Source: Escallonia rubra
Taxonomy: Eukaryota > Streptophyta > Magnoliopsida > Escalloniales > Escalloniaceae
Direction of reading: 5' to 3'
Assembly: GCA_033065855.1 (NCBI GenBank)
Contig: JAVXUO010002288.1
Location: 310,001 to 374,000 of the forward strand
Length of the DNA: 64,000 nucleotides
Position 1 is the stretch's first letter. Every line of letters begins with the position of its first letter. A program made the position numbers and the translations under genes. The notes beneath the pieces were generated by a model. That model did not search any database, had not been told where the DNA came from, and saw only the letters and a list, made by a program, of their open reading frames with translations. Below, piece after piece: positions 12,601 through 60,537 of this stretch.

Positions 12601-14454
12601 ACCAAGAAACGGATACATGAGCCCTCTGTAATTGTTCTTCGAGGTTTACATGAATTTTTTTCGCTTTGATAACCAATTAAGACCACCATTAAGGCGTCTA
12701 CCTCCGAAAGGAACTGAAAACCATTTAGTTTGAGAGCAGCTTGGTTCACCCATACTTCTTTTCAGGAGCTAGTTGCCTTGCATTAGAGCTTCAGTGAAGG
12801 TACTGTCATGACAACGATAAAAAGACTGGATGTCGACCACCTTTGGTATATATTCTGAAGAGAAGCACACTGGCCAGGATTGAAAGGGCTGACACCCCTA
12901 GTTCTACAACCTTTGGTCTTCCTAGAAGGCTAGAAAACTGGTTATCTTTGCCAAGGAAGAAAGATGTTGGTTCAAGGCATCCTGTAAATGGTAAATGCTT
13001 GGTGACAATATGCAAGGTTGAACTTTGAACTTGCCATACCATCTAGGCTTGCATCTTACAAAGTCCCAACTCATAAGAACCCCTAGAGAAGTTTGAACTT
13101 ATTCTAACACCCAATGCTGGAAATCCATTTTGTATTTAGGAGTTCATACTTAGGCGTTCATGGAGACCTTCATAATACTACACCCTAACATTTTCTTCCA
13201 TTGTGACTGAGGCCAAGTCCAGAAACTGAAGGCAGTTATGTGACTATGCTTGTAGTTCATTCAGTTGTTAGCTGGTCGGAATCCTGGATCTCAATCACCA
13301 ATTGTGGGAGTTTCTTCACCCCCACCCAGTATCAGCATAGTATGTTTTTGTCTTTTGAGTAGAGTTTAGGTTTTTCAAATGTAGCTGTTGTGTATTAATA
13401 CACTCTACCATATATTTTCATCTTATATTAGGCGAATGCACTATATGAAGATATGCTTGATCAGCTCAAGGCCAGCAGTATAACCCAACATGCCCGTCAG
13501 CAAGTTGATGGTGTCGTCCGTCGAAGTGAAGAAGGAGCTGAATACTATGTGGAATCGACTGTTCCTGATACATGCAAGCACAAGATTCCTGCCCATGAAG
13601 GCGGCTGCGCTGCTATAATATTCGAGAACAATTCTGACAAAATAGTTAGCGGTGGGCAAGATCAGGCTGTTAAAATATGGGATGCCAACACTGGGTCCTT
13701 AAGTCGCACTCTCTATGGTTGTTTGGGCTCTGTTCTTGACCTTACTATTACCTATGATAACAGATCTGTTATTGCAGCTAGTAGCTCAAACAACTTGTAT
13801 GTATGGGATGCAATTTCGGGGAGGGTGCGTCATACACTCACAGGCCATATAGACAAAGTCTGTGCAGTTGATGTGAGCAAATTTTCAAGTCGACATGTTG
13901 TGAGTGCCGCTTATGATCGGACTATAAAAGTTTGGGATCTGAATAAAGGTTACTGCATCAACACTATTATTTTCCACAGCAATTGCAATGCTCTGTGTGT
14001 CAGCATGGATGGACTTACTATATGTTCAGGTCATGTTGATGGAAACCTTCGGATGTGGGATATTCAGACAGGAAAGCTAGTTAGCGAAGTTGCTGCTCAT
14101 TCGCTCGCGGTTACATCATTGTCTCTTTCTCGAAATGGAAATGTAATACTGACAAGCGGAAGAGACAACTTGCACAATTTATTCGATATGCGGAGTCTCG
14201 AAGTTTGTGGCACACTAAGAGCGAGTGGGAACAGAGTGGCATCTAATTGGAGTCGATCGTGTATTAGTGCAGATGACAATTACGTTGCGGCTGGATCTGC
14301 TGATGGGTCCGTCTCTATTTGGTCGATATCAAAAGCCAACATCGTGAGCACTCTAAAAGAACACACTTCTTCAGTTTTATGTTGTTCATGGAGTGGCCTT
14401 GGTAAACCCCTAGCAACCTCTGATAGGAATGGTGTCATCTGTACATGGACATGA
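9665..14454 (+). CDS. ATG16: Autophagy protein ATG16 (WD40), five coding exons
   Basis: ATG16 binds ATG5-ATG12 and positions the ligase that lipidates ATG8 on the growing autophagosome membrane. Coding exons: 9665-9666 (AT), 9767-9893, 10928-11109, 11179-11374, 13432-14454; all introns are GT-AG and in phase, giving 509 residues. The start ATG is split by the first intron: AT before it, G after it. The next codons give AQEEIAIEAIKHAVKALRKR, the conserved plant N-terminus with the ATG5-binding helix (about 1-45). A coiled coil follows (about 45-215), including MLVDRWMLQKMQDAERLNE. Seven WD40 repeats run from about residue 222 to 509, each ending in a WD-like pair (KIWD, YVWD, KVWD, RMWD, LFD, SIWS, CTW). 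Length and layout match Arabidopsis ATG16. The 2.06-kb intron 4 holds only short open frames I do not recognise. A MULE occupies the sequence just upstream of the short 5' leader. Confidence 0.95.
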
Positions 14455-19147: not shown

Positions 19148-20519
19148 CTATTCGATATAATCTGGACAAGAATTTTGATACTCCATCGTAACCTGGTTGA
19201 TGCCCAGATCGAACCCAACTCGAAGGTTCCTCTGCTGGTACATGCCAAGCACTGACATCCCTTCGTGAGCTTCCACGATAGCCAAGCAATGTTGCCCATC
19301 AGTAACTTTTATCCAAGTGTTGCTTTTGCACAACGTTATCGCCATATGGTTGGCAAACCGAAGCTCAATTTCTGGCGGGTCGGGAGCATTTTCGTAGCAC
19401 AGCCCAAACTGAATATCATGATCAGTCTCGTAGAATGCATGCGGTTCCTGATCTAATACACTGTTAACTATCTTTCTTCTTAACGCTTTGAAAATTGGTG
19501 CATCAAGTACTGTATATGTCGTACCTGTATCAATCGTGAATCCCCCTTCATAGTGTTTGGTAATGATCCGAATAGCCGTAGAATATGTCCTGACCAGAGA
19601 CCATGATAGCTTTGAGCCTCAATAGGTAATGACCATAGTCGTTGGGCACTAACGGCGTTGTAGGTCCAGGAGTTGTTGCTATCAAACCAAAGTCGATCTC
19701 CCCATAGGTACCGCTACTATTTGTTGATACGTAATACGAAAATTGAGGGTATTCCAGCTGCCCAATCAATGACGAAGTGTGATTCGCTAAACCAATCACG
19801 CCAGGAAATCTAGTACCTTTATCGGTGTTTTGAGTACCGCATCCAAACATCATGTGTTCGAGGTTGGTTTCTCCAGTTATGCCATTATCGGCTAACGTAA
19901 TAGTATCTGTTCCGACATACCCGTCGGAGGTGAATCTGTCCATGTCGTCAGTGTGAAAGCGGCATGCACCCCAGGTCAACCAGTTGCATTGCGCACCTGG
20001 ATATGCATCACAACTAGGTCCACAAGGAATGGCTTCAAATGTCGATGGCTTCTCGTAGTTGTAGAAGGGCACACTTTGCTCATAGCAATGGACGCATGGC
20101 TGACACTGCAGCCAAATTACATGACTGGCAGTGTCAGCCACTCCGAATGTTTGGACAGGCGGGGTACCAATGCTGTAGCTCATGACAAAGTCCTTGCCAA
20201 TTACAGCAACGGGAGATAGTGCATACATCAGCGATTCTGATGGAACTGATTTTCGCTTACTGAAAACACGTGCTCGAGCCAAAGACGTACGGATGCCATT
20301 GCTGATAAGGTCTTCGTGTTTGGTGTTGGGATCATAGAATGGAGACTCGGGGGAAGTGCGGTGGATCAGAGGAGCTGTGAAGCCAATATTCTTGCGAGGA
20401 AAAGGGAGCGATGGCATGAAGGACGAGACAAAGTCTTGATCAGGGCGACTGCTCAGAGAGGAAGAGATCGTGAGAAAAAGTATCGTCACCATGAGCGGCA
20501 ATACTTGAGAGAAAGCCAT
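19148..20519 (-). pseudogene. Aspartic protease, CDR1/nepenthesin-like, copy 1 (frameshifted)
   Basis: Secreted A1B-type aspartic protease. Starting at ATG 20,517-20,519 the frame gives a signal peptide (1-23), a propeptide with HRTSPESPFYDP (about 53-64), the substrate-binding start YSIGTPP and the first catalytic motif, here DTAS at 129-132 instead of DTGS. The Cys-rich plant insert (LQCQPCVHCYEQSVPFYN) follows. This frame stops at 19,548. The rest of the protein, with the second catalytic motif (GGFTIDTGTTYTVLD), LGMYQQRN and the C-terminus CPDYIE, is open in another frame down to TAG at 19,148. Compared with copy 4, about 5 bp are missing at the break near 19,550, just before the second catalytic aspartate. 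No intron signal fits there. I read it as a recent pseudogene; a sequencing error is possible. Confidence 0.85.
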
Positions 20520-21733
20520 GGGAGAATATTGTGCTACCGAGTTTAGTTGTAATGAAACTGCTCATGCAAGATGATTTATTGTTTAATACTACATAACATC
20601 CGTGGGAGTCTTTGCATGGGGTTCTCAGTGCCAAGAATGTGGTATAAGTTGGTCATATGGCAAGCTTGATCATATGTAGTAACCAAATCTCTAGCTAAGC
20701 TTAATCATCGTGTCCATTTAAGCCGGAAAATGTTTTTGCGATTAGGAGGTACTTGCGAGTTCGTAACCTTCTTTTTCTTGGCACTCTGAGGACCAGAATA
20801 ACCATCAATTCCACATTGCCCCCTCCTTTCTCTTGCCTCTTTTTGCAATATAACGATTTTTTCTTACTTTTTTCTGGTAATTCTCATTAATTATAACTAT
20901 CTTTTCACCTCATTTTTGTTGTAAACTAAACGCTAGGACTTTCACTAGAAGATTATTTAGTTTCATGCTAACAAGTACAACTTAAACGTCATGCATTATT
21001 TTCCGATCCAAGTGATATGATTAACGAGAAAAGGACGTGTCATGTCGTTACACCGACTCGTTCTACCTTTCATCCAACCGTCGATGATCAAATATAATCT
21101 CCTCATCTTTAACTTGTTCTAGCTGCCAAAACTGGGCTGCAAGAAGCTACCAACACAAAAAATTCCGATGCGAACAATTAGTAAAACTCGTGCATACTTT
21201 TCCTACGTTATGAGCGGATCACCTATTTACAAGGCTTATACTACCAGTCCTCGTACCGAATACAAGTATTCTATGTGACGGCCATTCAAGTTGGTCAGCG
21301 AGCCACTTTTGGATCAATGTTTTCAGAAGAACTGCATGGAATAATGTCCTGGGCAAGGGCAAGATGAGTGCCACATACGGTTCCTTGTGCCATCAAAAGC
21401 CACCATGTGTCAAATAGGAATGATTTGAGAGGAAAATGGTCTGCTATCAATAGCCAATAGGCAACACACACCACTAAAGACATTTAGATGTTCCCACTCG
21501 CATTATAGTGACAAATGGAATCGAATTATCTGGGGATTTCTTCGTCTTTTAAAAATTGAAAAATGCCATTTGAACTGCTAGTGATAGTCGAAAAACATCG
21601 AGTTAGAATGTCAAGTAACATAAGGAGAGGGGAGGTTTGGGCGGGCTGCTGACTTGACTTCAGCCGTGATTGCAGTTGCCTTCCATGGCCTTTTCAATAT
21701 ATATATTTCTCTCGAATCTCAATCGTTATTGCT
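20520..21733. other. Upstream region of protease copy 1
   Basis: This spacer matches the corresponding spacers of the other copies. 20,600-20,860 resembles 33,990-34,670 (words such as GCTTGATCAT, CTTGGCA..TGAGGACCA, CCATCA..TTGCCCC). 21,590-21,690 resembles 36,640-36,740 (ATCGAGTTAGAAT..CAAGTAACAT, CAGCCGTGATTG). It therefore belongs to the duplicated block. No gene is seen. Confidence 0.6.
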
Positions 21734-22925
21734 CTAATACCACTCCTCTAACACCACTGGCTTTATAATGTGGTGGTGCTTAATCCGCACTCGCTTCTCC
21801 CACCACCATTTTGATGTGACGGCCTCAAGTGCTGCGGTGATATTGCCACTGCAATAAGAGAAAAGAAAATGGGATTAAGAAAAACACAAAAAACACGCAC
21901 ACACATTTGTATGAATTGCTTTCCTAGGAAAATGCTTAAATCGCTGAATTTTTTTATGAGAAGAACATGGTAACAAGAACGCGACATGACATAACGGTAA
22001 AGTTTCTCCTCTGTGACAAGCTGGCGGTCACGGTTTCGAACATCGGAAACCACCTTGGCCAAAATTAGGGATAAGCTGCTTGCGTGCATCAACCCTTGGA
22101 AAAGTTAATGACCGGTTGCATAAAATAAAAGAAAAAAATATTATAACAAACAAACACTACTGAAAACTGGAGACAACACTAATATCAGAAAAGAAAACAA
22201 GAAAAAGCGATAAAGAACTTGTAAGTTGGCCAGCAAACCAAACTTTCAAGTCCTCAGAGTTTAACCAGTCATCAATCACTCTCTCTCACGCTCTAAGTGA
22301 TTCTTAGACCCAAGTAGCCTTGTTAGGTGCGAAAACTTTCTCTAAACAAGTCAAGTTTTACATCTAGGTTTGATTTCAACATTGTGAAGTAAAAATAGGC
22401 AGAATAAACTGAGATTATGTCATGTCATGACATTTTTTCTTACTGAAATCGAGTCATGTAAAATAAATACCTCTCATACGCATCACGATTGCAGCTTCGG
22501 TTGCAACTTTCAGGGGTTGGCTTGAAACGGTGATACCGTTCAGTTGGCGTACGGTTGTAACAAAGCTCTGTACAAAAGCAGTACTTTTCCGCAAACGCTC
22601 TAAATCTGCCCTCTAACGTATCTATTAACTTTAGGTATTCCAAAAACTTGGGGCAGCGGCCGGGCCGAACCTTGGTGCAACGCCAAGCTTCACACATTTG
22701 GCTTACCGTGGTTTGGCAGTCGTTGGACACGGGTCTTGGAGGCACAAGTATTCTCAGTGCGCAGTTCTTGAACCCGGTACCGGTGCCATCTCCATCTTCT
22801 TCTGATTCTTGAAAACCGTGCAGTTCTGCTAATCGCAGTTGTTGGACGTAGGTCAATGAAGTTAGGAGGACGATCACGGCGATGATGGTGATGACTGCAA
22901 GTATTTTACCCAGAGAGGAGTTCAT
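21734..22925 (-). CDS. Cysteine-rich membrane-anchored or secreted protein, family unknown, copy A
   Basis: I do not recognise this family. Exon 1 is 22,471-22,925 and exon 2 is 21,734-21,848, joined by a GT-AG intron in phase 2, giving 189 residues. Residues about 8-30 form one hydrophobic helix (ILAVITIIAVIVLLTSLTYV), a signal anchor or signal peptide. An acidic stretch (ESEEDGDGTG) follows, then a domain with ten cysteines (from KNCAL to CNRSC), in which FCTELCYNRTPTERY and CNRSCNRDAYE stand out. Exon 2 adds GNITAALEAVTSKWWWEKR and a basic/His tail. The splice model is supported because copy B at 36.8-37.8 kb conserves exon length (455 nt), phase, donor, acceptor and the exon 2 peptide. 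The role could be a secreted peptide-like or receptor-associated protein, but nothing proves this. It sits directly upstream of a protease gene in both blocks. Confidence 0.75.
21975..22105 (+). mobile_element. Au-like SINE relic in the copy A intron
   Basis: A tRNA-like head with an A-box-like ATAACGGTAAAG and a B-box-like GGTTTCGAAC is followed by the Au SINE signature words TCGGAAACCACCTTGGCC, AGGGATAAGCTGC and GCGTGCATCAACCC. It lies antisense to the gene. The same relic sits at the matching place in the copy B intron, so insertion came before the gene duplication. The copy is old, with many changes. Confidence 0.6.
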
Positions 22926-24275
22926 GTTATACGTCCTTTCTTTGGGCAGTCTTTATGATAATGCCCGCACAAACAAATCACTCTCACATATATAGCCAGA
23001 AAGAGAACAAGGGTGGTTTGGACTCAATCTTTTCTACCAGGGCCAGAGCTTTACAATACGTTAATAGAGCTGACCTAGCTTTATGTTAACCTGATATTAA
23101 GTTTATCTCCTTCGTTTTCGATTTGTAAGTTTAAAATGCATGAGTTTGAATTCGTATGGGAAACAAACTTGAGGTATCTTGTAGTTGATTTTTGTGGACG
23201 GTCGAATCATATAACTTTTCTTTTTGTTAAAAAAAAGGCTGGAAGAAAGTATTGAGCCTTGAAATTCTACAAGGCTGTCATATACATCTGGACTCCCGAT
23301 TTCCACACCTACGTAGGGCCGAAGTGCATGAAAAATCCGCGTGTGGATGGGCAGGTCGGGTCGGATAGGATCATAGTACCACTTTCTACCTACTTTTCCC
23401 CATTATTGTAAGCCTAGAATATTCTGACAGGTCGGGTCGGATCATATTACCACTTTCTATTTACTATTCCCCATTATTGTAAGCCTAGAATATTTTCTCT
23501 CTCTCTCTCTCTCCTAAACTAACAGGGTGTTTGGGATTGATTTTGGGATTATCAAACAAAGTTTAATCTAAAATTAAATCAGTTGTGTGAGTGTTTGGCA
23601 AAAAAATTAAGAAATTTAATCTGCATTCAAATCTAAAAACAGATTAAATCCATAATCCTAAAAATTGAAGATTATGTAATAATCACTTTTCTCATAATCA
23701 GGTTTGACCTTCTAATTTACAATATTATCCTCATATTTCTCACAAAATCACATTTCATACCGTTTAACTATAATGATGCAAGATTGTAGGTGTTTTTAAT
23801 TTAAAATAAAAATAAACAAATTTTATAGGTGTGTGAAAATAACTTTTCAATAATTTATTTGTTTAGTATACTTAATTACAAATGAAAGTTATGTTAACAC
23901 TACCTTTCTAAATGGATACTATATTTATTAAGTGTCATCTATGATCCTTTTGTCATAGTAGAGTTGATTTAAACACTTTTTATCCAAACATTTTTTGTAA
24001 CTTTAAGCTAGTTTACAATTACTTTTGTCAAATTACAAACTAATTCTGCTTAAAGTAGATTAAATCTTATTTTGAAAATCAATTAAGATTTAAGTTGAAA
24101 TCTACTTTCTAGAATCAATCTAAAAAAGACTCTTAGTAATACAATTATTATTCCCCATTACCGTTTCTATCAGGCAAGTATTCTACCGAGAGAGGAGTTC
24201 AGGTTCTCTTCCTTCTTCTGGGCTGCCTTTATGGTAGTGTCTGCACAAACAAATCACTGTTACATATAAAGCTAA
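22926..24275. other. Flank of copy A with a MITE-like repeat and a relic of the same gene start
   Basis: 22,926-23,510 holds the upstream region of copy A, including a CT microsatellite (about 23,494-23,513) and a tandem duplicated 75-bp word (CAGGTCGGGTCGGAT..CATTATTGTAAGCCTAGAATATT). 23,520-24,135 is AT-rich with imperfect inverted ends (GGGTGTTTGGGATTGATTTTGG; GAGTCTTTTTTAGATTGATTCTAG on the other strand), like a MITE; a related stretch lies upstream of copy B at 38,100-38,560. 24,175-24,275 is a fragment of the 5' end of the cysteine-rich gene, matching 22,906-22,985 but with the start ATG changed to AGG. Confidence 0.55.
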
Positions 24276-25029
24276 AAACAGTGTTTTGGACTTGTTAAGA
24301 GTTCAGGTTCAAAGGTCGGAGGAAGATTTCTACAATCCTGTTAGCAGTCAAAGTTTGTTCACTCTGCACTCCCCTCCCACCATCCTCCTGTACCCATTTC
24401 ATTGTAATTGACCAGTTGGGTTCACTCCTAAACCCTAAGAGCATGACCAATTCTTTAGATTAGAACACATACCAAAGTCGAACGTATGGCACCTCTATGG
24501 TAAAACGTCAAGTTTGATAAAATGACAAAACGTGTCAATATGGCTACAACCAATTAATAATGCAACCTAAAAGAAAGGAAGAGAGGAAAATAGGCACAAT
24601 GAGATGCAGATTTACCTCGTATGGAAACGGTGAGATTCAGCGGAAGCGTGGAGGGAAATTGAGGTCGTGTCAATTAGCAAGTAAAAGCACCACCAAATGA
24701 AACCAATTTAATTTAAGTCATAACCCAAGTGAACGGTCACAATGTCTTTAGATCACACATTGCGTATGACATCATCTACACACTCAGAACTTGAACCCAG
24801 ATGAACTAAACATCAACCTCATCATAATCCTATCGTGCCTGATGATATCTTCGAAATTATCGACTATCATTATTTTTGTGATCAAAGAGATAGAAGCGAG
24901 TTATGGCCTGATTGAACTTGCTAATAACCTAAATGAAGACTATGCAAAACCCAAAGCGAACCTAATTAGTCCACCACCAGAAACAATGTCAATCCCGAAT
25001 AAGCAGGCATCTTCAACCAAGATCCCCCC
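24276..25029. other. Intergenic DNA
   Basis: I see no gene here. An open frame at 24,791-25,054 (87 codons) has no recognisable domain and is not supported by codon pattern or context. Confidence 0.4.
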
Positions 25030-26140
25030 ATCAAAATCTACACCTCAACCTTGATCTTCTTAACAGGAATGTAGTTCCTACATTCTAACTCCAAAGAAGT
25101 AGCACAAGAGGTGGGGGAGGAATAGATCGAGCTAGCGAGAAGTAAATTCTGGCTCAAAAGGAACTAGCCCCAATCTGACTCAATTGAATAGAGGCAAAAG
25201 GCGGTATCTCGATTCGCAGCAATAGAGAGCAGGAGATGAACTCTAACGATGCGAAAGGAAAGGTACATTTCGAAGCAGTAGAGACTCACGCAGAAACCCA
25301 CCCACCCGAGCTACGCGCTACTCCCACCTATAAGCCTATCCCCTCGCTTGATAAGACTCTAATTCAGTTAAGTGTAGTTTGTGGTTCAGGTCGACCAAAT
25401 CACCTCCTTGCTTTTCTTGAGGCAAAAGACTTTGTGATTGGATAAGGTCACTGCTCATAATTCCCGTAGTTCAGGTCATGCCAGGCTCTAGCTTCGCGCA
25501 CCAGCTGACATCTTTCGACGAAAAGAGATTTCACATACTGAACTAAGTACATAGTAGGCCTTCCAGATTGATTTCGCTAGCCTGGGGAAGAACATATGCT
25601 TCTTCTATGATGACATCTGGGCCTCGAGCTTGCTTCATCGCCTTGACGACAGATCTTGGTCCCTTCTTTTCGTCGTTACTTAAGTGACAAAGATGTGATA
25701 GATATTTGTAGCTTCAGATTAAGTGTAATAATAATATGAAGTCCAAATTATTGTAACAAAAATAAGTGAATTAGAATCCAAGATAAATTGTAATAATGAT
25801 AAGAAATTCAAATCATCATAACAACAATAAGTGGATTAGAAAACAAGCAATGTTGGATAAGCCCCACCTAGCCCCTAGGTTGGTGATAAATATCAACTCT
25901 CGTTATTTTCCCTATTCCCTATTCGACCAGCTTCAACAAATGCTTGTCTAGTCAAGCGGCGCTCATCCCTTTCTTGGCCACATAAGGTTTCGCTTCTGAA
26001 GTCGGTTACTGACTTGACTTCGTTCACTCAACAATCATTGAATCCAGATTGCCACTAGGTAGGAGCTCCTCTTTCCATTTAAACGAAATCAACTTTCTTG
26101 AAGCGGGTTAGCTAAGTACCATCCATTTAGCTAACGGATT
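25030..26140. other. Possible mitochondrial DNA insertion (NUMT)
   Basis: The composition changes abruptly here to the balanced, low-repeat style of plant mitochondrial intergenic DNA, with words such as GCTAGCGAGAAG, CTTTCTTGAAGCGGG, GCGCACCAGCTGACATC and CTTTCTTGGCCACATAAGG. No mitochondrial gene can be named in it. It is interrupted at about 25,690-25,860 by AT-rich sequence with a repeated AAATTATTGTAACAA word. This call is by style only and needs a similarity search. Confidence 0.35.
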
Positions 26141-26201
26141 ATGTTCAGATTAATCGTAACAATAATAAGATGTCCAAATTATTGTAAGAATAATACGTAT
26201 A

Positions 26202-27342
26202 TATACATGAGTGGAATAAGGCAACCATGGTGAAATATATATGGGATCTGGCTACCAAGAAAGACACTCTCTGGATTAAGTGGTATCATACCTATATAAT
26301 CAAAGGCCAAAATTTCTGGTTCTTCAAACCACCAGTTAAGCAGTCCTGGACATGGAGGAAGCTGATCCAATTGAGAGGTAAAATGCAGCCATTTATTAAA
26401 TATCATATTGGAAGTGGCAACAACACATGGTTCTGGTTTGACAACTGGTTGCCTAACATATCTATTATAAATCAATTTGGTACAAGAATAGTCTATGATG
26501 CTGCTAGCTCTATGAACCTAAAGGTAAGAAAGGTTTTGGTGCAAGGCAGATGAAATATACCTATAAGATCAGAAGATCTAAGGCAGTTAGCCAACCAATT
26601 ATCAGAACTCCCTAACAACAATGGCACTGAGGATCAAATCAAATGGATGGCACATCCTAGTGGTAAATTTAATATTCAATCAGCCTGGAATGCTATCAGA
26701 GTGCATAAGCCTATAGTCTCACGGTGGAAGATAATTTGGTTTCCTGGACAAATTCCAAAGTGTGGTTTCATATTGTGATTGTTGTGCAAGAAAAACCTAA
26801 GGACTAAAGATAAACTAAGGGCATGGAAATTTGTTGAAGATGATCACTGCAGTATGTACAATCAACATCAGGAGACAGTTGAATATCTCTTTATGGAGTG
26901 CAACAGGAGTAAAGAGATCTGGAATTAAGTGCTTAGCAAAATTCTAGTCTATGGGCAGTTCACCACAGCGTCTTAATTTCTACAATTTGCATGCAACAAA
27001 TTCAGGAGAAAGAGTTTTAGAGCTAGATTATGCAAGCTAACTTTGGGAGTTACCATATACAGCATATGGGAGGAAAGGAATCAAAGGATATTCAAGGGAG
27101 GAATGAGATTGTAGCAAAGATTCAGAAATGGATATTTTACAGAGTTTTGAGCTGGAAGAAGGCAATGGCATCTACAACTAATATACAACTATGTAAAAAC
27201 TGGGAGATACCTCTGAATGTGTTGCATCACTGAGAAACGAGTTAAAAATGTTTTCTTGTGTAAATTGTAGGCAAAGATTCAGATGTAAGATGACTTTGAA
27301 GTCTTTCACCGGTAAAGAAATGACCTTTTACCAACAAAAAAA
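26202..27342 (+). mobile_element. 5'-truncated LINE with reverse-transcriptase zinc-binding (zf-RVT) remnant
   Basis: The insertion is bounded by a perfect 16-bp target-site duplication AAGAATAATACGTATA (26,186-26,201 and 27,343-27,358) and ends in a poly-A tail (about 27,335-27,342). The coding remnant reads WIKWYHTYIIKGQNFWFF, then a WTWRKL..IGSGNNTWFWFDNWLP motif. Further on come IQSAWNAIR, SRWKIIWFPGQIPKC and VEYLFMEC. This is the zf-RVT domain and C-terminus of a plant L1-type ORF2. Endonuclease and reverse-transcriptase domains are missing through 5' truncation. Stops interrupt the frame at about 26,553, 26,776 and 26,926. The perfect duplication indicates a fairly young insertion of an already defective or since mutated copy. 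Confidence 0.88.
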
Positions 27343-27358
27343 AAGAATAATACGTATA

Positions 27359-28502
27359 AAAGCCCATGAATATTTTTGAACTTCATATTTAGGGACGCAA
27401 CTACAAAAGCGGTAAAAATTGAATTCCACCGCCAAATATCAATCATAAGTGTCCCAAATTACTAAATTTACTTTTATTTTTAGTGATCAAAAACATATTT
27501 TTTCTTGGACTAAGGTAACATATAGTTTTGGTTCAAACCAAGGTTGTAGCGAGCTGCAACATTCCATTTAGCAAGAAAAATAGATGGCATCATCACAACA
27601 TATAGATAGCGACTAATTAATATTAAGAGCATTAATTTTGCATCACTAATTTTGTCACTTGTCCTAATTTTGTTGTTTAGTTTACGCATTTTATATTGAT
27701 CTATATTTGCATTGGTTTTACTTCTTTTTTTCCTTACCACTAACATGCTTCCGTAGTTCGGATACGATTTTTATCACTTGCACTTCAACATTTGTCGCTA
27801 ATGCACATAAAAGTGTAACAAAAGCCCATGAATATTTTTTTGGTTTCAAATGTTTACAGAAGTGTAACTAAAGCCCATAATTTCTTTTTTAATTTCATAT
27901 ATTAGCTACATAAGAGTAGTTGAAGTGGTAAAAATTGAAGTCTATTGCCAAATATAAATCCAAAGGTGTCCCAAAACACTAATTTAATGTTACTTTGATT
28001 TTTAATGAATGAAGATAGAGTTTTTCTTTGACTAAGATTACGATAAACTTTGGCTTCATCTAACTTTGTATCAAAGCAGTAATTCCCATTTAGTGAGAAA
28101 ATAGCATTACAAAATAAAGAAATTGACGTTTTTGCATGCCTAGGATTTTTTATTTTGCGTCACTAATTTTGTCACTAACCATACTTTTGTCGTTTAGTTT
28201 TGCACGTTCTAATTGTAATAATAACATTGGAGATAACAAATAGATTAGGAGTCTAAATTGGCAACCTGAGACTTCACCACAAAAAAAAATTTGCATCACT
28301 AATTTCGTCACTAACCATACTTTTGTCTTTAGTTTTGCGCGTTCTAACTGTAATTATTACATTGGAAATAACAATAGATTAGGAATCTATTCATAATAAG
28401 CCGAGACTATTAATATATATATTAGAAGTCCAAAATTAAGGTAATCTGAAACTTCACCAGACAAGTGACAAAATTCCATAAAAGAACCCGTCTTTTATAT
28501 AG
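27359..28502. repeat. Degenerate tandem repeats, AT-rich
   Basis: The word AAGCCCATGAATATTTTT occurs near 27,361 and 27,823, and a shorter version near 27,872. GCATCACTAATTTTGTCAC occurs near 27,640, 28,154 (GCGTCACT) and 28,293 (the last with TTTCGTCAC). AAAAATTGAA..CCGCCAAATAT occurs near 27,413 and 27,930. The spacing is irregular (about 140-510 bp), so this is a decayed multi-copy repeat. No gene is supported. Confidence 0.55.
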
Positions 28503-28605
28503 TTATATCGATTGATATTGATTGATTGATATTGATAGATTGATCGATATTGAGATCAATATTTATTGATATTAATTGATTGATATTGATATTGATTTTT
28601 AACTG
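28503..28605. repeat. ATTGATTGAT-type minisatellite
   Basis: About 100 bp made of GATTGATATTGATT words with small changes, including GATCGATATTGAGATC. Beyond this, 28,606-28,940 is the 3' flank of protease copy 2, similar to 58,800-58,920. Confidence 0.85.
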
Positions 28606-29004
28606 TTCTAACACAAAAAGAAACTAATAACTACAAAGGGCTACTATAACCGGGTTAGGGAACAAAAGAGTACTTGGATAGCATACCATGAATAGACAAT
28701 TAAGGGCAGTGATTACTACAGCTCATTTGAAAAACAAAAAAAGGTACGAAGAATGTTATCATGGTCCTGTTTGAGTCGAGCCATAAGAATTTTTATGGAG
28801 ATTTAGGAAAAATGACAGAAAATTGAAGTTCCCCCCTGTTGCATCATGAGCAAATCAATGAGAACACAAAGCAGGGAGAAAGTGTTGGTATCAAACGTAA
28901 ACCGAAGTGCGTCTCGATGTTGATCGACAGTAATGCCGTAGCTTATTTCAGAGGCGGAGCTAGGCATGTACGAGAGGGGGCTATAGCCCCCTGTCAGATT
29001 TTGA

Positions 29005-29052
<48 letters not shown>

Positions 29053-29716
29053 TTTTTCACACTTTTCGGCTCTCTCTCTCTCTCTTCGGCTCTCTCTCTC
29101 TCTCCGGCGACGGGCGACCGGCCTCTCTCTTCTCAGTTCTCACCACCAGTCACCAACCGAGGGTCCGAGACACCGACCGGCGGCCGGCGCCTCACTCCGG
29201 CAGCCACGACGAACCCGGATCTACTTCGGCTCACTCCTCCCGTCGGCAGTCGGCACCCACGACACGACGAACGACGATTCGACGAACCCACGTCGGCAGA
29301 CGGCAGTCGACACCCACCTACGACGAACGGCGAACGCACTTCGGCGCGACGGGCGACGGCGCGGCCGGCGCCTCACGGTCACGGGCTCTTCAGTCTTCAC
29401 TCCAACGGATCTACGGCGACGGCGAGTCTGCGACGGAGAGACCGGCGACGGAGAGAGAGTCTTCAGTCTTCACAGTTCACTCCAATGGTCCACCGCCGGC
29501 GGCAAGGACCCAGTGACCCCGGATCTACGCCGACGGCGAGTCGGCGACTTCGGTTGTACACTTGTACTGTCTTCACTCCAACAGTTCACCGGCGGCTAAA
29601 CTCCGGCGACCGGCGGCCAAAACTCCGGCGACCGGCGACTGAATTGAATTGAGCTTTCAAACTCCAGTGACAAGTATGTTCCAACTTCCAAACTTTAATT
29701 TCACCTTTCATTGACT

Positions 29717-30065
29717 TGAGCATTGAATTGAATTATGGATAATCTTGAGCATTGAATTGAATTATGGATAATCTTGAGCATTGAATTGAATTATGGATAA
29801 TCTTGAGCATTGAATTGAATCAATTGATTATGGATAATGTTGAGCATTGATTATGGTTAATGTTTAGCATTGATTATGGATAATCTTGCGCATTGATTAT
29901 GGTTAATGTTTAGCATTGATTATGAATAATCTTGAGATATTGATTATGGTTAATGTTTAGCATTGATTATGGATAATCTTGAGATATTGATTATGATTAA
30001 TGTTTAATATTGATTATGGATAATCTTGAGATATTAATTATGGTTAATGTTTAGCATTGAGATAT
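29717..30065. repeat. Tandem repeats in the hAT leader intron
   Basis: First come about four copies of a 29-bp unit containing TTGAATTGAATTATGGATAATC. Then an alternating unit GCATTGATTATGGATAATCTTGAG / ATTGATTATGGTTAATGTTTA follows, with copies diverging toward the right. They lie within the predicted 5' leader intron of the transposase gene (donor near 29,671 GTATGT, acceptor CAG at 30,260-30,262). Confidence 0.85.
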
Positions 30066-30263
30066 TGAGATTGATGGAGGATGGGACCCAATTGGATTGA
30101 GATATCGAATGTGTGATTTAGTTGAATGGTGGGTTGAAATTAGGTTAACGCAATAATGAAACATGACTGAAAAAGTAAAAGAATAAAATATTTTGATTAA
30201 TTAGGTTATTTGATTGATAATTGATGGATTGATATTGAAAATAAAATGTGTTTTATTTTCAGA

Positions 30264-32702
30264 ATGGATAAGTACTATAAAAAGAAACCAAAGTTTGAAG
30301 AAGTGCAGCCTAGTAAGAATGAGCGTATAAATGAAGATACTATTCAACAGTCTATAATTCCAACAGTAAGGGACAAGGCTCCCATTGTGCACCGTGATGT
30401 TCTTTTCGGACATTCAAGTAGAATTAGCGATGAGTTCAACTCGGATGAACTTATTTCGGATCCTGGGTTGCGTCCAAATATTTGGGATTATGGTCCTAAT
30501 GTTCGAGATAAAGTCCGACGAGCGTATTGGTCGAAAGGTCCTTGCCAACCTCGTGACCACAGTTTTCCATTTACAAAAATCGGAACTCAGTCTCGTCGAT
30601 TTGTTTCTTCTTGGTTTGACATTTATTCGAGTTGGTTGGAGTATAGTATAGCAAAAGATGAAGCATTTTGTTTGTGTTGCTACTTGTTCGGAAGTGTTCA
30701 TGGGGAGCAAGGGGGTGGTGGTGCTTTTGTTAAGCATGGTTTTAAAGATTGGAGAAAGAAGGAAAAATTCCAAAGACATGTTGGAGAAGTTGGTAGTGCA
30801 CACAACATGGCTTTAACTAAGTGTCAAGCCTTTGATAACCCTAAGCAGAGTATTGAAGTAGTTTTGTCCAAGCAAACAGATGAAAGTAAGGTTCAATACC
30901 GTACTCGCTTGACTGCATCCGTTGATGTCATTCGGTTCCTCTTACGTCAAGGCTTGTCTTTCCGTGGACACATAGAATCTAATGAGTCTGAAAATCAGGG
31001 AAATTTTCTAGAACTTTTAGGGTTTCTTGCTGATCACAATGAAAACGTGAAAAAAGTCGCATTGTAAAACGCTCCTCAGAATCTGAAATTGACTTCACCA
31101 CAAGTTCAGAAAGAAATTGTTAGTGCCATTGCCGGAGAAATACGAGATGCAATTGTTGGAGACATGAAATCTGAATTATTTTCCATTTTAGTTGACGAGT
31201 GTCGTGATATTTCAGTCAAAGAACAAATGGGAGTTGTCTTCAGATATGTGGACAAAAGAGGACGTGTGATTGAACGTTTTTTTGGTATAGTCCATGTTGC
31301 TAGTACCACTGCCTCATCATTGAAAGACGCGATTGACAGTTTATTTGCAATGCATGAATTGAGCATTTCAAGGGTTCGTGGACAAGGCTATGATGGAGCA
31401 AGTAATATGCAAGGTGAATTCAATGGTCTTAAAACCTTAATTCAGAGGGAGAATGAAAGTGCTTATTATATTCATTGCTTTGCTCATCAACTTCAGCTAA
31501 CTCTTGTAGCCGTTGCAAAAAAACATGCTCAGATTGCATTGCTTTTTAATTTGGTTGCTAAGGTAGTCAACACTGTGGGAGTTTCATGCAAGCGAAGAGA
31601 TGCTATTCGAGAAAGTGAAGCCATTAGACTTGCTCGTGACCTTGAGAGTGGTGATATCGTCAGTGGTCGAGGTTTAAATCAAGAAACTAGCATCAAAAGA
31701 GCAGGAGAGACTCATTGGGGATCACATTACGGTGCATTATTGAATTTGAGTCAAATGTTTGATTCGGTGATACGTGTGCTTAATAAGGTTGTTGAGGATG
31801 CTACAGATTATGAACAGAGAGGTGAAGCATTGGGTCTTTTGAACTCGGTGCCAACTTATGATTTTGCCTTCAACATGTATTTGATGATAAATATTTTGGG
31901 GATGACGAATGAACTTTCACAAGCATTACAAAAGAAAGATCAAAACATTGTGAATGCAATGAAGTTGGTAAGTATAACAAAGCAACGATTGCAGGACTTT
32001 AGAGATCGAGGGTTGGAAAACTTGCTGGAAGAGGTTTCACAATTTTGTGTAAAACACGATATTGACGTATTGGACATGAGTGCGAGGTTTGTAGCTCCGG
32101 GGAGGCAAAGACGTAATGCTGAAGAAGGTACAAATTTTTACCATTATCGTGTTGATATTTTTTTAACGGTTGTTGATTTGCAAATCAGTGAGTTGAATAA
32201 TCGTTTCAGTGAGGTAACCACGGAGTTGCTTATGTGTATGGCATGTTTCGATCCAAGTGATGGTTTTTCTGCTTTTAATAAGCAAAAGTTGATACGTCTT
32301 GCACAGTTTTATCCATATGACTTTTCGCCGATAGAGCTTAGGGTACTTCAAAGTCAGCTCGAGACTTATATTATGGATGTGCGCTCCTGTGAAGAACTTT
32401 ATGAAGTCAGGGGAATTGGTGAACTTGTTATAAAGTTGGTTGAGTTGAAAAAGGATGTGATATATCCTTTGGTGTTCTTGCTTTTGAGATTGGTCTTACT
32501 TTTACCTGTTGCAACTGCTACTGTAGAAAGAGCTTTCTCTGCAATGAAGATAATAAAGACTCGACTTCGGAATCGCATGGGAGACGAATGGATGAATGAT
32601 AGCTTGGTTTGTTACATCGAGAAGAATGTCTTCAAAACTATTACAAATGAAGCTATTATCAAACGCTACCAATCTTCGGCGCCTCATCGAATAGTTATTT
32701 AG
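30264..32702 (+). pseudogene. hAT transposase, TTF zinc finger / DUF4371 / hAT dimerisation
   Basis: DNA-cutting enzyme of the surrounding hAT element, of the zinc-finger MYM-type-1-like plant group. I chose ATG 30,264 because a leader intron acceptor (TTTTATTTTCAG) ends one base before it; an in-frame ATG at 30,246 would lie in that intron. The frame is 812 codons long. A TTF-type zinc finger (FCLCCYLF near residue 133, then W and H residues) lies at about 85-185. DUF4371 and the RNase-H-like core carry the likely catalytic aspartates in LVDECRDIS and GYDGASNM. The C-terminal dimerisation region (PVATATVERAFSAMKIIKTR) is at about 720-800. One premature stop, TAA at 31,065-31,067 (codon 268), interrupts the frame; relatives have a sense codon before NAPQNLKLTS. 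Everything else is open. It could be a very young dead copy or a reading error. Confidence 0.93.
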
Positions 32703-32944
32703 TACTTTCGTTTGTAAACTCTGAAATATTTATTTTGTATTTGCTTTTGTTGTACTGTAAAGAGTCTTTAGTAGCTCTCATGAAATTAAATATGACTTTT
32801 TGGATGTTTTTTCGTATTAATTTGTGTTTTGTCGAAAAATGCATTTTTTTGTTGTTGCTATTTTACTAATAAAAATAATTATTAATTTCGATATATATTT
32901 AGCCCCCTCTCGGATGAAATCCTGGCTCCGCCCCTGGCTTATTT

Positions 32945-33143
32945 TATTCATATATTTACTCTATGGAACTCTATTGGTCCGGATAATATTTTGGGATCAA
33001 ATGAAACGTGCCTACATTTTGGTGTTCATGCTTTTGATATGTCTTCTGAATGAGTAGAACTATCCGCTAATTGATTCAACAACGATTTATTACATGATTT
33101 TAGTCGAGTATGAATTGAACAAGAATGAAAGGAACATCAAATC
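32945..33143. other. 3' flank of protease copy 2
   Basis: This stretch continues the flank that the hAT element split. Words such as ATTCAT..ATATT, GGAACT.TATTGGT..GGATAA.ATTT and AAATGAA.CG match 58,922-58,985 downstream of copy 4. No gene. Confidence 0.6.
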
Positions 33144-33939
33144 CTACTCGATATTATCTGGACAAGGTACTTTGTAATACATAGTAACCTGGTTGATGCT
33201 CAGATCATATCCAACTTGAAGGTGGTTTGGTATCTTTATCGACGTTTTCGGTACCGCATCCAAAAATCATGTCTTCGAGGATGGTTTCTCCCGTGATGCC
33301 GTTATCGGCTAAAGTAATAGTCTCTGTAGAGAGATCTCCATTAGAAGAGGACTTATCGATGTAATCGGCGTGGTAGCTACATGTTTCCCCCCAAATTGAC
33401 TTGGAGCATTTTGTATTGTCAACCGACTCACATCTCGGTCCACAAGGAATGCTTTTGTATGTCGAAGATTTGTAACGATTATAAAAGGGAATGCTTTGCT
33501 TGTAGCAGTGCCTGCATGGCTGACACTGCAACCAAATTATATGGCTGCCGGTGTCAGCGACTCCAAATGTTTTGACAGGTGGGGTACCAATGCTGTAGCT
33601 CATGACAAAGTCTATGCCAATTATCCTAACAGGAGATCGAGCATATATCAGTGATTCTGCTGGCACTGACGTACTTCTGCCCAAAAAATGTGCTCGAGCC
33701 AAAGAAGTACGAATACCATCTCTAATAAGATCGTCGTGTTTGGCCTTGGGATCGTAGAATGGAGACTCGGGAGAAGTGCGGTGGATAAGATGTGCCGTGA
33801 AGCTTATATTTTTGCGAGGATAGAGAAGGGGTGGCATGGACGTAGGTAGAGAGTCTTGATCAGGACGATTGCTTAAAGAGAAGGAGATCATGAGAAGAAG
33901 TAGTACTGCCATGCGTAGCATTGTTTGGGAGAAAGCCAT
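33144..33939 (-). pseudogene. Aspartic protease copy 2, internal deletion
   Basis: The frame opens at ATG 33,937-33,939 with the same signal peptide, propeptide (HRTSPESPFYDP) and first catalytic motif, here the normal DTGS, in VADTGSHIIWLQC. It continues through the Cys-rich insert and FGCGTEN, then ends at 33,205. About 0.57 kb is missing compared with copy 4: the middle of the protein, the second catalytic aspartate and most of the C-lobe. The deletion joins KPP to the C-terminal piece (LQVGYDLS..NQVTM in another frame, ending at TAG 33,144). One lobe alone cannot be an active enzyme. It is the left member of a nearly identical 1.5-kb tandem pair with copy 3. Confidence 0.9.
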
Positions 33940-36180
33940 TAGTGTGTACTGTATTGTGTTAATGAGCTAAGGGTAATGGTCTTTTTATATGCGCCCATGT
34001 GGGGAGTCTTTGCATGTGGTTCTCAGTTTCAAGAGTTATATTGTTCAAATTGGAAGCTTGATCATTACCTTTATAACGTAGCCCAGTTCTTAGGTAAGGT
34101 TAATCATCATCTTTATCTAAGCCATTTGACAAACGTATTTAACAGTAATGTGATCCTTATAAATATAACCATCATTCCACCTGCCCCCTAGCTTGTTATA
34201 AAAAGTAATCTTTTAATTAGGGTTTCTGAGAGTACCATTCTTTCCAGACATGTAGGGTTTCTCTGAGAACAAGAAAACCCTGTATATAGTTCTTTTCTTT
34301 GGATCAGTAATCCCCAGACAGGCATCAAATTATTGATATAATTGAAATGACCCAATACAAAATTGGTACACAAAAACCCATGCCCACTTAGTCAAAACTA
34401 AAGTGAGGTTCCACCAACTCCCAACTAAACACAGGATAACAAACCCAGATCTTTATCAATGTTCCATAAACTTATAGGTAGAAACCACCTACGCGAGTGC
34501 CTGATAACAAACTAAGAAACCTAGATAAGATAGATAGCACAAAAATGGATCTTTGTATGTTTTTGTAGTTAGGGGTCCTTAATTATAAGTTTGATCACAA
34601 TCGTTTTCTTGGCATTATGAGGACCAAAATAAACCATCATTTAACTTGCCCCTACTTTTTCTTGCCCTATTTATCGACGTTTGTAATACATAGTAAGCTG
34701 GTTGATGCTCAGATCATATCCAACACCAGGTGGTTTGGTATCTTTATCGACGTTTTCGGTACCGCATCCAAAAATCATGTCTTCGAGGATGGTTTCTCCC
34801 GTGATGCCGTTATCGGCTAAAGTAATAGTCTCTGTAGAGAGATCTCCATTAGAAGAGGACTTATCGATGTAATCGGCGTGGTAGCTACATGTTTCCCCCC
34901 AAATTGACTTGGAGCATTTTGTATTGTCAACCGACTCACATCTCGGTCCACAAGGAATGCTTTTGTATGTCGAAGATTTGTAACGATTATAAAAGGGAAT
35001 GCTTTGCTTGTAGCAGTGCCTGCATGGCTGACACTGCAACCAAATTATATGGCTGCCGGTGTCAGCGACTCCAAATGTTTTGACAGGTGGGGTACCAATG
35101 CTGTAGCTCATGACAAAGTCTATGCCAATTATCCTAACAGGAGATCGAGCATATATCAGTGATTCTGCTGGCACTGACGTACTTCTGCCCAAAAAATGTG
35201 CTCGAGCCAAAGAAGTACGAATACCATCTCTAATAAGATCGTCGTGTTTGGCCTTGGGATCGTAGAATGGAGACTCGGGAGAAGTGCGGTGGATAAGATG
35301 TGCCGTGAAGCTTATATTTTTGCGAGGATAGAGAAGGGGTGGCATGGACGTAGGTAGAGAGTCTTGATCAGGACGATTGCTTAAAGAGAAGGAGATCATG
35401 AGAAGAAGTAGTACTGCCATGCGTAGCATTGTTTGGGAGAAAGCCATTAGTGTGTACTGTATTGTGTTAATGAGCTAAGGGTAATGGTCTTTTTATATGC
35501 GCCCATGTGGGGAGTCTTTGCATGTGGTTCTCAGTTTCAAGAGTTATATTGTTCAAATTGGAAGCTTGATCATTACCTTTATAACGTAGCCCAGTTCTTA
35601 GGTAAGGTTAATCATCATCTTTATCTAAGCCATTTGACAAACGTATTTAACAGTAATGTGATCCTTATAAATATAACCATCATTCCACCTGCCCCCTAGC
35701 TTGTTATAAAAAGTAATCTTTTAATTAGGGTTTCTGAGAGTACCATTCTTTCCAGACATGTAGGGTTTCTCTGAGAACAAGAAAACCCTGTATATAGTTC
35801 TTTTCTTTGGATCAGTAATCCCCAGACAGGCATCAAATTATTGATATAATTGAAATGACCCAATACAAAATTGGTACACAAAAACCCATGCCCACTTAGT
35901 CAAAACTAAAGTGAGGTTCCACCAACTCCCAACTAAACACAGGATAACAAACCCAGATCTTTATCAATGTTCCATAAACTTATAGGTAGAAACCACCTAC
36001 GCGAGTGCCTGATAACAAACTAAGAAACCTAGATAAGATAGATAGCACAAAAATGGATCTTTGTATGTTTTTGTAGTTAGGGGTCCTTAATTATAAGTTT
36101 GATCACAATCGTTTTCTTGGCATTATGAGGACCAAAATAAACCATCATTTAACTTGCCCCTACTTTTTCTTGCCCTATTT
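33171..36180. repeat. 1.5-kb nearly identical tandem duplication (33,171-34,672 and 34,680-36,180)
   Basis: Two direct copies of about 1,502 bp carry protease copies 2 and 3 plus their upstream spacer. In all stretches I compared they are identical, except in the first 55 bp at the left end of each (a C/G change, and TTGAA versus CCAG at the deletion joint). The 7 bases ATCGACG between the units have no counterpart at the outer end. ATCGACGTTT also occurs inside each unit near its left end, hinting at a template-switch filler. Confidence 0.92.
34671..35447 (-). pseudogene. Aspartic protease copy 3, in-frame internal deletion
   Basis: 258 codons from ATG 35,445-35,447, identical to copy 2 through DTGS and the Cys-rich insert up to KPP. 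Here the joint reads PPGVGYDLSINQLTMYYK, so the N-terminal lobe is fused in frame to the last residues. The stop TAA (34,671-34,673) comes from sequence at the tandem-duplication joint. The second catalytic motif is gone, so no proteolytic activity is expected. A secreted one-lobe product that binds or competes is conceivable but unproven. Confidence 0.85.
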
Positions 36181-36752
36181 TGCAAAACGACTATATAAGT
36201 TTTCCTTTAGTCGATAACTTGTAGAACTATCTTCCAACTTCACTTTTTTGTAACCTCTAAGCCAGGAAGGAAAAACTTGTTTGAGAACTTCACGCACACG
36301 AGTGCATGATGCATCCTAGATGTCTTGTTTTTAGGTTCAAATGGATTTGAATTAGCAAAAAGATGTATCACGTTAATGCTGCGACTTGTTTGAAATTCAC
36401 CTAGGCGTCTGCGGTCAAATGAAAACGGGTCGTTGCATATGCATTCCAACATAAGCAGTTGCAAAACGAAGAATCAATGGAACTCATGGACATATTCTTC
36501 CATTATGAAACAAATGCAAATTTAGGATACTTGCAACAATGGAACAATTGCAAATTTAGGATGCTTGCTTGCAAAACCACTAATGACAAGCCTTAAGATG
36601 GTACAGCACTTCACGTCGAGTGTAAATATATCATGCAGTGAAATCGAGTTAGAATTCCAAGTAACATAGATGGGGAGCTGCTGATGACATGACATTCAGC
36701 CGTGATTGTAGTTGCTTTTTCTGGTCTTTTCTACACTCGTTTCTTTCTATCC
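36181..36752. other. Spacer between protease copy 3 and cysteine-rich gene copy B
   Basis: The right half (36,630-36,750) matches the 3' side of copy A (21,590-21,735), so it belongs to the duplicated block. 36,470-36,570 has a short tandem duplication (CAAATTTAGGAT.CTTGC twice). No gene is seen. Confidence 0.5.
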
Positions 36753-37814
36753 TTATTGCTCTGCCAGTGGCTTTCTGATGCGGTGGTGCTCTCTCCGCAC
36801 CCGCTTCTCCCACCACCATTTTGATGTGACGGCCTCTAGTGCTGCGGTGATATTGCCACTGCAAATAAGAGAAAGCAATTAAGAACGGAAAAAAAAACAC
36901 ACACACACACACAAAACACAACATAGACATACTTCATTCTATTTGTGTTCTAAGTTTCTTTTCACCGTATAAATGGATTTCCCAGGAAAGTGCTTAGAGT
37001 ACCGAAATTTTTTGTGAGAAAGAATGGCATTCTAAACTTTGTAATAAACAAAATTGCCACTCGACGCATCAATGAAGTTTCTCCACTGTGACATGATTGT
37101 CACGGGTTCAAACAATGGAAACGACCTGGCCAAAAGAAACTATATACGGTTAATGCTGCATGTGTTGGAAGCACACTCGGTCAACCTAGGAATAAGCTGG
37201 TTGTGTTCATCAACCCTCTGGGGTTGGCTACGTAATCGAAATCCAAACCATCGCGCTTTTTAAGATATTCTCACGAAGAAAATCCGATCTCAAATCATGA
37301 CTTTATAAAGAAAAAGAACAGAAATCCTGTATGGAAGATCATGTATGCAAAATCAATACCTCTTATACGCATCATGATTGCAGCTTCGGTTGCAAAATTT
37401 AGGGGTTGGCATGAAAAGCTGATACCGTTCGGTTGGCGTACGGTTGTAACAAAGCTCTGCACAAACGCAGTACTTTTCTGCAAACGCTCCAAATCTGCCC
37501 TTTAACGTGTCTAGCAGCTTTAGGTATTCCACAAACTTGGGGCAGTGGCCAGGCCGAATTTTGGTGCAACGCCAAGCTTCACAGATTTGGCTTACCATGG
37601 TCTGGCAGTGGTTGGACACAGGTCTTGGAGGTACTAGTAGCCTCAGTGCGCAGTTCTTGAACACAGGACCGGTGCCATCTCCATCTTCTTCCGATTCTTG
37701 AAAACTGCGCAGTTCTTCAAATCGCAGTAGCTGGACGTAGGTCAGTGAAGTTACGAGGAAGATCACGGTGATGATGGTGATGACTGCAAGTATTTTAAAG
37801 AGAGTGGACTTCAT
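36753..37814 (-). CDS. Cysteine-rich membrane-anchored or secreted protein, family unknown, copy B
   Basis: Paralogue of the gene at 21.7-22.9 kb. Exon 1 is 37,360-37,814 (455 nt) and exon 2 is 36,753-36,858, giving 186 residues. The hydrophobic N-terminal helix, the acidic ESEEDGDGTG stretch, the ten cysteines and the exon 2 block GNITAALEAVTSKWWWEKRVR are all kept. The tails differ (RREHHRIRKPLAEQ here). Changes are mostly substitutions without frameshift, which suggests selection on the protein. Without splicing the frame would end seven codons after the donor, so the intron matters. The intron carries the same SINE relic as copy A. Confidence 0.75.
37055..37215 (+). mobile_element. Au-like SINE relic in the copy B intron
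   Basis: It matches the relic in the copy A intron: GAAGTTTCTCC.CTGTGACA, GTCACGGGTTCAAACAATGGAAACGACC and GGAATAAGCTGGTTGTGTTCATCAACCC, read in pieces. About 50 bp extra sits in its middle. Antisense to the gene. Confidence 0.6.
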
Positions 37815-59186: not shown

Positions 59187-60537
59187 CTACTCGAAATTAT
59201 CCTGACAAGGTACTTGGTAATTCATAGTAACCTGGTTGACGCTCAAATCATATCCAACTTGAAGATGCCTCTGCTGGTACATGCCAAGAACTGATATCCC
59301 TACGGACGCTTTCAAAATGGCTAAGCAGTGCAGTCCATTAGAAACTTTTACCCAACTAACCCAAGTGTTACCTTTGCACAACATTAGCTCCATTTGATTA
59401 GCAAACTGAAACTCTACTTCTGGATAGTCGGGAACATTCTTGTAGCAAAATCTCGTTGTATGCCTGTGGTTCCTCATCATATACTTCGTACGCAATTTTT
59501 TTTCTCAAGGCGTTAAAAATTGGCTCATCAAGTACGGTATAGAGTGTACCGGTGTCAATCACAAACCCCCCGTCATATTCTGGCGCTTGGTTGTAGCTCG
59601 AAAAATCATAGTCTATATCTTCGCCAGAGACCATGAGCCCTACAAGACTCAAGCGGTAATTACCGAAATCATTGGGCAATAATGGCGTTCCAGGTCCTGA
59701 AGTCGTTGCTGATAAACCAAAATGAATCCACCCATGGGTGCCGGTGCTATTGGTGAATATGTAGTACGAAAATCGAGGATATGCTAGCTGCCCAATCAAT
59801 GAAGAGGTGCGATTACCTAAGCCAAGCACACCGGGTGGTTTGGGCTTGGTATCTCTATCGGTGTTCTCAGTACCGCATCCAAAAATCATGTCTTCGAGGA
59901 TGGTTTCTCCTCCGTTATCGCCTAAAGTTATAGTTTCCGTTGAGAGATATCCATTAGAAGAGGACTTTTCCATGTAATCGGAGTGATAGCGACATGTTGA
60001 ACCCCAGGGTGACGAGTAACATATTGTATCTCCACAAGGAAGACTTTTGTATGCCGATGATTCGTCACAATTATAAAAGGGAATACTTTGCTTATAGCAA
60101 TGGTCGCATGGCTGACACTGCAGCCAAATTACATGACTAGCAGTGTCAGCGATCCCAAATGTTTTGACGGGCGGGGTACCAATGCTGTAGCTCATGACAA
60201 AGTCTATGCCAATTACCCTAACGGGAGATCGAGCATCTATCAATGATTCTGCTAGTGCTGACGTACGCTTACCAAAGAAATGTGCTCGAGCCAAAGAAGT
60301 ACGAATACCATCTCCAATAAGATCGTAGCGTTTAGCATTGGGATCGTAGAATGGAGACTCGGGAGAAGTACGGTGGATGAGACGTGCCGTGAAGCTTACA
60401 TTTTTTCGAGGATAGAGGAGGGATGGCATGGAGGAAGAGATAGAATCTTGATCAGGGACATTGCTTGAAGAGGAAGAAATCATGAGAAGGAGAAGACGTA
60501 ATATTGCAACGCGCAGCATTATTTGTGAGCAAGCCAT
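59187..60537 (-). pseudogene. Aspartic protease copy 4, CDR1/nepenthesin-like (frameshifted C-terminus)
   Basis: The most complete copy. I chose ATG 60,535-60,537 (MACSQIMLRVAI) over the upstream in-frame ATG at 60,585 because it aligns with the other copies. It has a signal peptide (1-25), propeptide HRTSPESPFYDP, the first catalytic motif as DTAS (131-134, Gly to Ala), the Cys-rich insert, the C-lobe, and the second catalytic motif VIDTGTLYT (Asp about 328). The frame runs to 59,398, but the last part (FCYKNVPDYPEVEFQF, LGMYQQRHLQVGYDLSVNQVTM) lies in another frame ending at 59,187. Compared with copy 1, about 23 bp are missing near 59,455. The unbroken frame would give a 379-residue protein with a foreign tail. 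Probably non-functional. Confidence 0.85.

Follow-up and report, generated by a model that had tools for sequence, protein, structure and literature searches.

In the window, the 64,000-nt stretch of contig JAVXUO010002288.1 of Escallonia rubra analysed here (assembly GCA_033065855.1, positions 310,001 to 374,000; a genome of 566 Mb in 3222 contigs), two two-exon genes on the minus strand, A and B, are probably functional local duplicates that appear to encode a lineage-restricted, tethered or secreted cysteine-rich protein, most likely of the plant cell surface or apoplast. Conservation between the two copies is confined to the exons, is accompanied by moderate purifying selection, and extends to identical positions of the cysteines and of the three shared N-glycosylation sequons. 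The pair had been noticed in an initial annotation, made by a model from the sequence letters, as an unrecognised cysteine-rich family with a conserved two-exon structure.

Two copies of a predicted two-exon gene with exon-confined conservation

Copy A consists of exon 1 (22471..22925, minus strand, 455 nt), which encodes a hydrophobic N-terminal helix, an acidic linker and ten cysteines, a phase 2 intron (21849..22470, minus strand, 622 nt, GT...TTGCAG) and exon 2 (21734..21848, minus strand, 115 nt including the stop codon), which contributes SGNITAALEAVTSKWWWEKR and a basic tail. Copy B repeats this arrangement on the same strand, with exon 1 at 37360..37814 (455 nt), a phase 2 intron at 36859..37359 (501 nt, TTGCAG acceptor) and exon 2 at 36753..36858 (106 nt including the stop codon). 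The predicted spliced products of 189 (A) and 186 (B) residues are 78% identical. These models reproduce the initial annotation in coordinates and strand, in the equal 455-nt first exons, in the lengths of both products and in the short second exon with its WWWEKR block and basic tail. The donor GAG/GT at offset 455 (GAG/GTATTT in A) is the top-scoring one between offsets 400 and 540 in both copies under an approximate scoring matrix; an alternative in-frame donor at offset 446 was rejected on score alone, with the same approximate matrix. Unspliced read-through was rejected as well, since the C-termini would then differ and conservation picks up again at exon 2.

The comparison of A with B segment by segment supplies the main argument for a gene. 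Exon 1 is 88.8% identical over 455 nt (51 of 455 differ) without any indel, and the first 91 nt of exon 2 are 91.2% identical, also without indel; the whole of exon 2 is 84.9% identical over 106 nt, with one 9-nt indel. The intron is only 64.3% identical over 381 aligned positions (136 differ) and has accumulated eight indel events with 361 gapped nt. Identity is 77.4% over 243 positions of the 5′ flank (55 differ, six indel events; in A the flank and 5′ untranslated region lie at 22926..23176, minus strand), 71.4% over 112 positions of the 3′ flank (three indel events) and 75.5% over 707 positions of the coding segment of the protease that neighbours each copy (one 3-nt indel). Exon 1 is thus less diverged than the intron (Fisher P ~2e-17), the 5′ flank (P ~1e-4), the 3′ flank (P ~2e-5) and the protease (P ~1e-8), and the 546 nt of exon 1 and the first 91 nt of exon 2 together are free of indels, which has a probability of ~3e-6 at the noncoding indel rate. 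As conservation is lost at both intron boundaries and returns in exon 2, the pair is best read as a spliced coding gene, and the two-exon structure proposed earlier appears sound.

The strength of selection was estimated from the nonsynonymous (dN) and synonymous (dS) divergence of the two copies. By the NG86 method, dN is 0.109 and dS 0.212 for the whole coding sequence (dN/dS ~0.5). For exon 1 the values are 0.104 and 0.184, while dS by other methods lies between 0.15 and 0.20, and dN is 0 over the first 22 codons of exon 2. Random placement of the 59 differences yields a mean of 41.7 amino-acid changes against the 36 observed (P 0.046), leaves the frame free of stops in 7.7% of cases, and leaves it stop-free with as few amino-acid changes in 0.6%. 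These values suggest that A and B are under real but moderate purifying constraint.

The third, start-less fragment seen earlier near 24.2 kb is real. Fragment C (24174..24266, minus strand) matches the 5′ untranslated region and first ten codons with 82% identity over 93 nt (E 3.9e-16), carries CTG in place of ATG and holds no cysteine domain; homology ends after the ten codons. Copy A has a TATA-like element, CTATATATG, about 65-70 nt before its ATG, and the corresponding upstream site reads CGTACATG in B and TTTATATG in fragment C. A sigma-70 promoter scan of the 5′ flank gave no more matches than shuffled sequences, under a model that is not applicable to a plant, and an Rfam scan of 19-40 kb gave no match at gathering scores.

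Protein searches of the plant's own genome with the exon 1 protein, the ten-cysteine domain and the exon 2 peptide recovered A and B only, with two matches each; they yielded 4, 5 and 2 candidates, of which the best were scored, and counts of large families from such searches are lower bounds. The DNA of copy A has four matches in the genome, namely A itself, both exons of B and fragment C. In the window and 30 kb of flanking contig, 10 kb to one side and 20 kb to the other, a tblastn search with A gave no additional match at E ≤1e-3; at looser values the window yielded just fragment C (E 3.1) and rows at chance level, the lowest of them at E 0.11. When the domain was compared by tblastn with 58 other loci of the genome, the only matches were in L012 and L013, the loci in which exon 2 of A and of B themselves lies, and the remaining rows were at chance level (E ≥2.2). 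The word family is therefore thin, as it covers a single cluster in a single genome, made up of two genes and a fragment.

Protein anatomy and comparison with described families

Each product shows the parts that had been described for it. The most hydrophobic 19-residue stretch lies at residues 8-26 in A (Kyte-Doolittle mean 2.6) and 4-22 in B (2.5), with lysine before this helix and acidic residues after it. The acidic linker at residues 32-50 has an isoelectric point of 4.05, compared with 9.2 and 9.6 in the two products from residue 50 onward and 9.4 and 10.9 in the exon 2 tail. Ten cysteines occupy the same positions in A and B (55, 70, 78, 83, 91, 116, 118, 122, 141 and 145), giving the pattern C-x14-C-x7-C-x4-C-x7-C-x24-C-x-C-x3-C-x18-C-x3-C. 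Three sequons (NRT, NRS and NIT) are common to both at positions 124, 142 and 154, and A alone has a fourth at residue 2, ahead of the helix. When the 135 shared columns are shuffled, three or more shared sequons arise in about 0.9% of cases. The shared cysteines and sequons suggest the lumen of the endoplasmic reticulum (ER) or the cell exterior, and the positive charge before the helix with acidic residues after it would place the C-terminal domain on the lumenal or outer side. The broad secreted or ER-lumenal cysteine-rich kind, characterised by ER targeting, disulfides and N-glycosylation, is hinted at only indirectly, by the even number of cysteines, the three shared sequons and the hydrophobic N-terminus.

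Searches of family libraries and structures leave both products without an assignable family. Pfam and NCBIfam (hmmscan, with Pfam filters that drop most matches above E 0.1) returned no family for either spliced product, and a PHROGs search with the alignment of the two returned none for either member. The only sequence match in the PDB at E ≤10 is a Tim10-type chain at a chance-level E of 1.2, and a two-sequence profile found no PDB match. Among contigs of bacterial genomes and of viruses, 48 and 7 pattern matches were obtained and no relative was confirmed, although these are not plant genomes and say little. In the literature text searched, six peptide strings of the products were not found, and wording for an orphan or type II cysteine-rich protein gave no match. 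AlphaFold2 models from a two-sequence alignment reached a mean predicted local distance difference test (pLDDT) of 48.8 and a predicted template modelling score (pTM) of 0.33 at full length, and 62.3 and 0.54 for residues 50-151. With caution, the models point to a mostly helical fold. Foldseek listed 36 and 23 PDB matches at E ≤10, with best E values of 2.7 and 4.8 and none reaching 0.001; these matches were not used, and the second search took the full-length model, which is too weak to mean much. The earlier description of the proteins as unrecognised is thus supported for Pfam, NCBIfam, PHROGs and the PDB, the last by sequence and by fold.

Among named families, alpha-hairpinins resemble A and B in their twin CX3C motif. 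In PMC11591084, their 4C motif is given as CX3CX4-20CX3C, which A and B fit with C118-x3-C122-x18-C141-x3-C145 (n = 18), and they also fit the 5C extension described there, a cysteine no more than three residues before the motif. Table 1 of the same paper (PMC11591084) excludes proteins with at least three cysteines outside the core motif, and A and B have six before it (55, 70, 78, 83, 91 and 116), or five if C116 is counted in a 5C core. The 4C motif arises in 2.0% of 20,000 shuffles of the domain. Helical prediction is common to alpha-hairpinins and A/B, and the hydrophobic N-terminus, which may be a signal peptide or an anchor, bears on the signal-peptide criterion of that group. Unlike alpha-hairpinins, A and B carry three sequons, a probable membrane anchor and a tryptophan-rich basic tail.

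Small TIM proteins (PF02953) have the twin CX3C in common with A and B, but they are soluble and without a hydrophobic anchor, whereas A and B have a hydrophobic helix. Pfam gives no match to this family, and the hhalign score of 13.4 against four of the five TIM loci of the same genome (a locus with an internal stop was omitted) falls within the range of 60 cysteine-keeping shuffles (median 12.1, best 23.1); alignment to the small-TIM segments leaves the CX3C units unaligned. The Prolamin_like or ECA1 family (PF05617), which is ER-targeted, resembles A and B in comprising small plant cysteine-rich proteins, but its pattern contains a CC pair, which A and B lack, and its cysteine spacing differs. 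No homology to it was detected, with no Pfam match and an hhalign score of 10.5 against a shuffle median of 10.2. This test used 14 of 20 loci of the same genome, taken from 37 matches, after five probable duplicates and a shorter match had been set aside. Among these prolamin-like genes, those at L049-L059 (contigs C1334, C2331 and C1507) are paired on two contigs with equal or near-equal scores, which suggests that the assembly may hold both haplotypes in places; searches of the genome found no such second contig copy of A or B.

Neighbouring proteases and other features of the window

Downstream of each copy, 1.2-1.3 kb away on the same strand, lies a protease gene with a TAXi_N/Asp domain, so that gene and protease were probably duplicated as a unit; the proteins themselves are unrelated. 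The nepenthesin-type aspartic protease beside A (19427..20561, minus strand) has its frame broken near 19.56 kb, and the copy beside B (34671..35447, minus strand) has lost its second catalytic lobe by internal deletion. The latter has a tandem duplicate at 33205..33939 (minus strand), 100% identical over the 300 nt compared at a spacing of 1508, and this truncated pair at 33-35 kb is, by its sequence, a very recent tandem duplication; homology is lost at the same place in both, and the predicted C-termini differ slightly at the break. In a fourth nepenthesin-type copy (59187-60585) the C-terminal part is encoded in a different frame, and this copy, like the one at 20.5 kb, has DTA instead of DTG as its first catalytic motif. 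Decay has thus reached every one of the four proteases in the window, which are either broken or without the second lobe, whereas the reading frames of A and B remain intact. Assembly errors could explain the two frame breaks but not the deletion. At least 38 nepenthesin-type matches occur in the genome at E ≤1e-20, four of them in the window.

Between the two gene units lie two adjoining open reading frames (ORFs) of a DUF4371/hAT-type transposase (30246-32702), just preceded by a short tandem repeat array at 29686-30060 with units of ~23-29 nt (ATTGATTATGG...). Elsewhere in the window, two adjoining ORFs at 54908-56582 encode a MuDR/MULE transposase, and an uninterrupted 333-aa WD40 ORF at 13453-14454, possibly a retrocopy, resembles the C-terminal part of ATG16.

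Function, alternatives and significance

If A and B are functional genes, the N-terminal helix would direct the product to the ER and would more probably remain attached as a type II anchor than be cleaved off as a signal peptide, and the acidic linker may act as a flexible stalk that holds out a small, mostly helical domain. This domain would be closed by up to five disulfides and could bear up to three N-glycans, with the tryptophan-rich basic tail encoded by the putative second exon forming the C-terminus. The product would most likely be a binding protein of the cell surface or apoplast, such as a ligand, an inhibitor or an antimicrobial-type defence protein. Cysteine-rich genes of this sort are commonly expected to act in defence or recognition; for A and B a defence or binding role is speculative.

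Several points weigh against a functional gene pair. Its support comes from the genome sequence, and all comparisons of A with B rest on two sequences. The constraint is no more than moderate; over the first 36 codons dN (0.155) exceeds dS (0.110), on few changes, the count of amino-acid changes in exon 1 alone is not significant (P 0.11), and the lack of cysteine changes is weak when taken alone (P ~0.10). Divergence is lower in the 5′ flank (77% identity) than in the intron, the TATA-like element of A has no counterpart at that position in B, and mean pLDDT values of 48.8 and 62.3 are too low to establish a fold. In addition, synonymous divergence (0.15-0.21) is lower than noncoding divergence (0.27-0.49), so that gene conversion could have added to the exon identity. 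The last point, together with a dN/dS that is not low, the dead fragment C nearby and the decaying proteases, would fit a decaying, functionless duplicate whose exon identity stems from gene conversion. Such decay is nevertheless improbable, as two separate exons are conserved around a diverged intron with no frame broken, and the combination of fewer amino-acid changes than random with no stop has a joint P of 0.006.

Other explanations accept the genes and assign them differently. A large-precursor alpha-hairpinin, from which the C-terminal CX3C-X18-CX3C unit would be released as an antimicrobial or trypsin-inhibitor hairpin, draws on the 4C motif, the 5C extension and the helical models. 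It is quite unlikely given that the loop of classic alpha-hairpinin peptides is shorter than the 18 residues here, that no hairpinin appears among the PDB sequence and profile search results, and that the six further cysteines match the exclusion rule in PMC11591084. A mitochondrial intermembrane-space protein with twin CX3C, related to small TIMs, is very improbable indeed, because the Tim10-type match over the CX3C part is at chance level, the two-sequence profile finds nothing, hhalign stays within the shuffles, and such a protein would not be expected to have the hydrophobic N-terminal helix, the three shared sequons or the six extra cysteines. The protein might instead be a partner of the adjoining aspartic proteases, as an inhibitor, regulator or substrate; joint duplication is in keeping with this, as is CDR1, an atypical plant aspartic protease that is extracellular and is hypothesised to free a peptide elicitor (PMC7909840). 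A gene that outlives its partner is not dependent on it, however, and since the window proteases are decayed while A and B are open, dependence on the local proteases is unlikely and A and B are not simply their accessories; weighed with these points is that other proteases of the class exist in the genome. We accordingly give the partner role little credence.

The reading of A and B as functional genes for a tethered or secreted surface protein is therefore preferred. Its most ambitious form, an undescribed, lineage-restricted family of membrane-tethered proteins whose ten cysteines belong to a new helical fold, whose tail is basic and rich in tryptophan, and whose surface role in defence or recognition has outlasted the co-duplicated proteases, is unlikely to hold in every part. 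Family libraries miss many of the short cysteine-rich genes of plant genomes, and the sharp loss of conservation at the splice sites makes this pair defensible as coding from its genome sequence alone. A and B give a well-defined object for the study of a disulfide-rich fold that may be new. A widespread family would bring a further class to the plant cysteine-rich secretome; a restricted one would clearly exemplify a young gene that was duplicated locally and retained while its co-duplicated neighbours decay.

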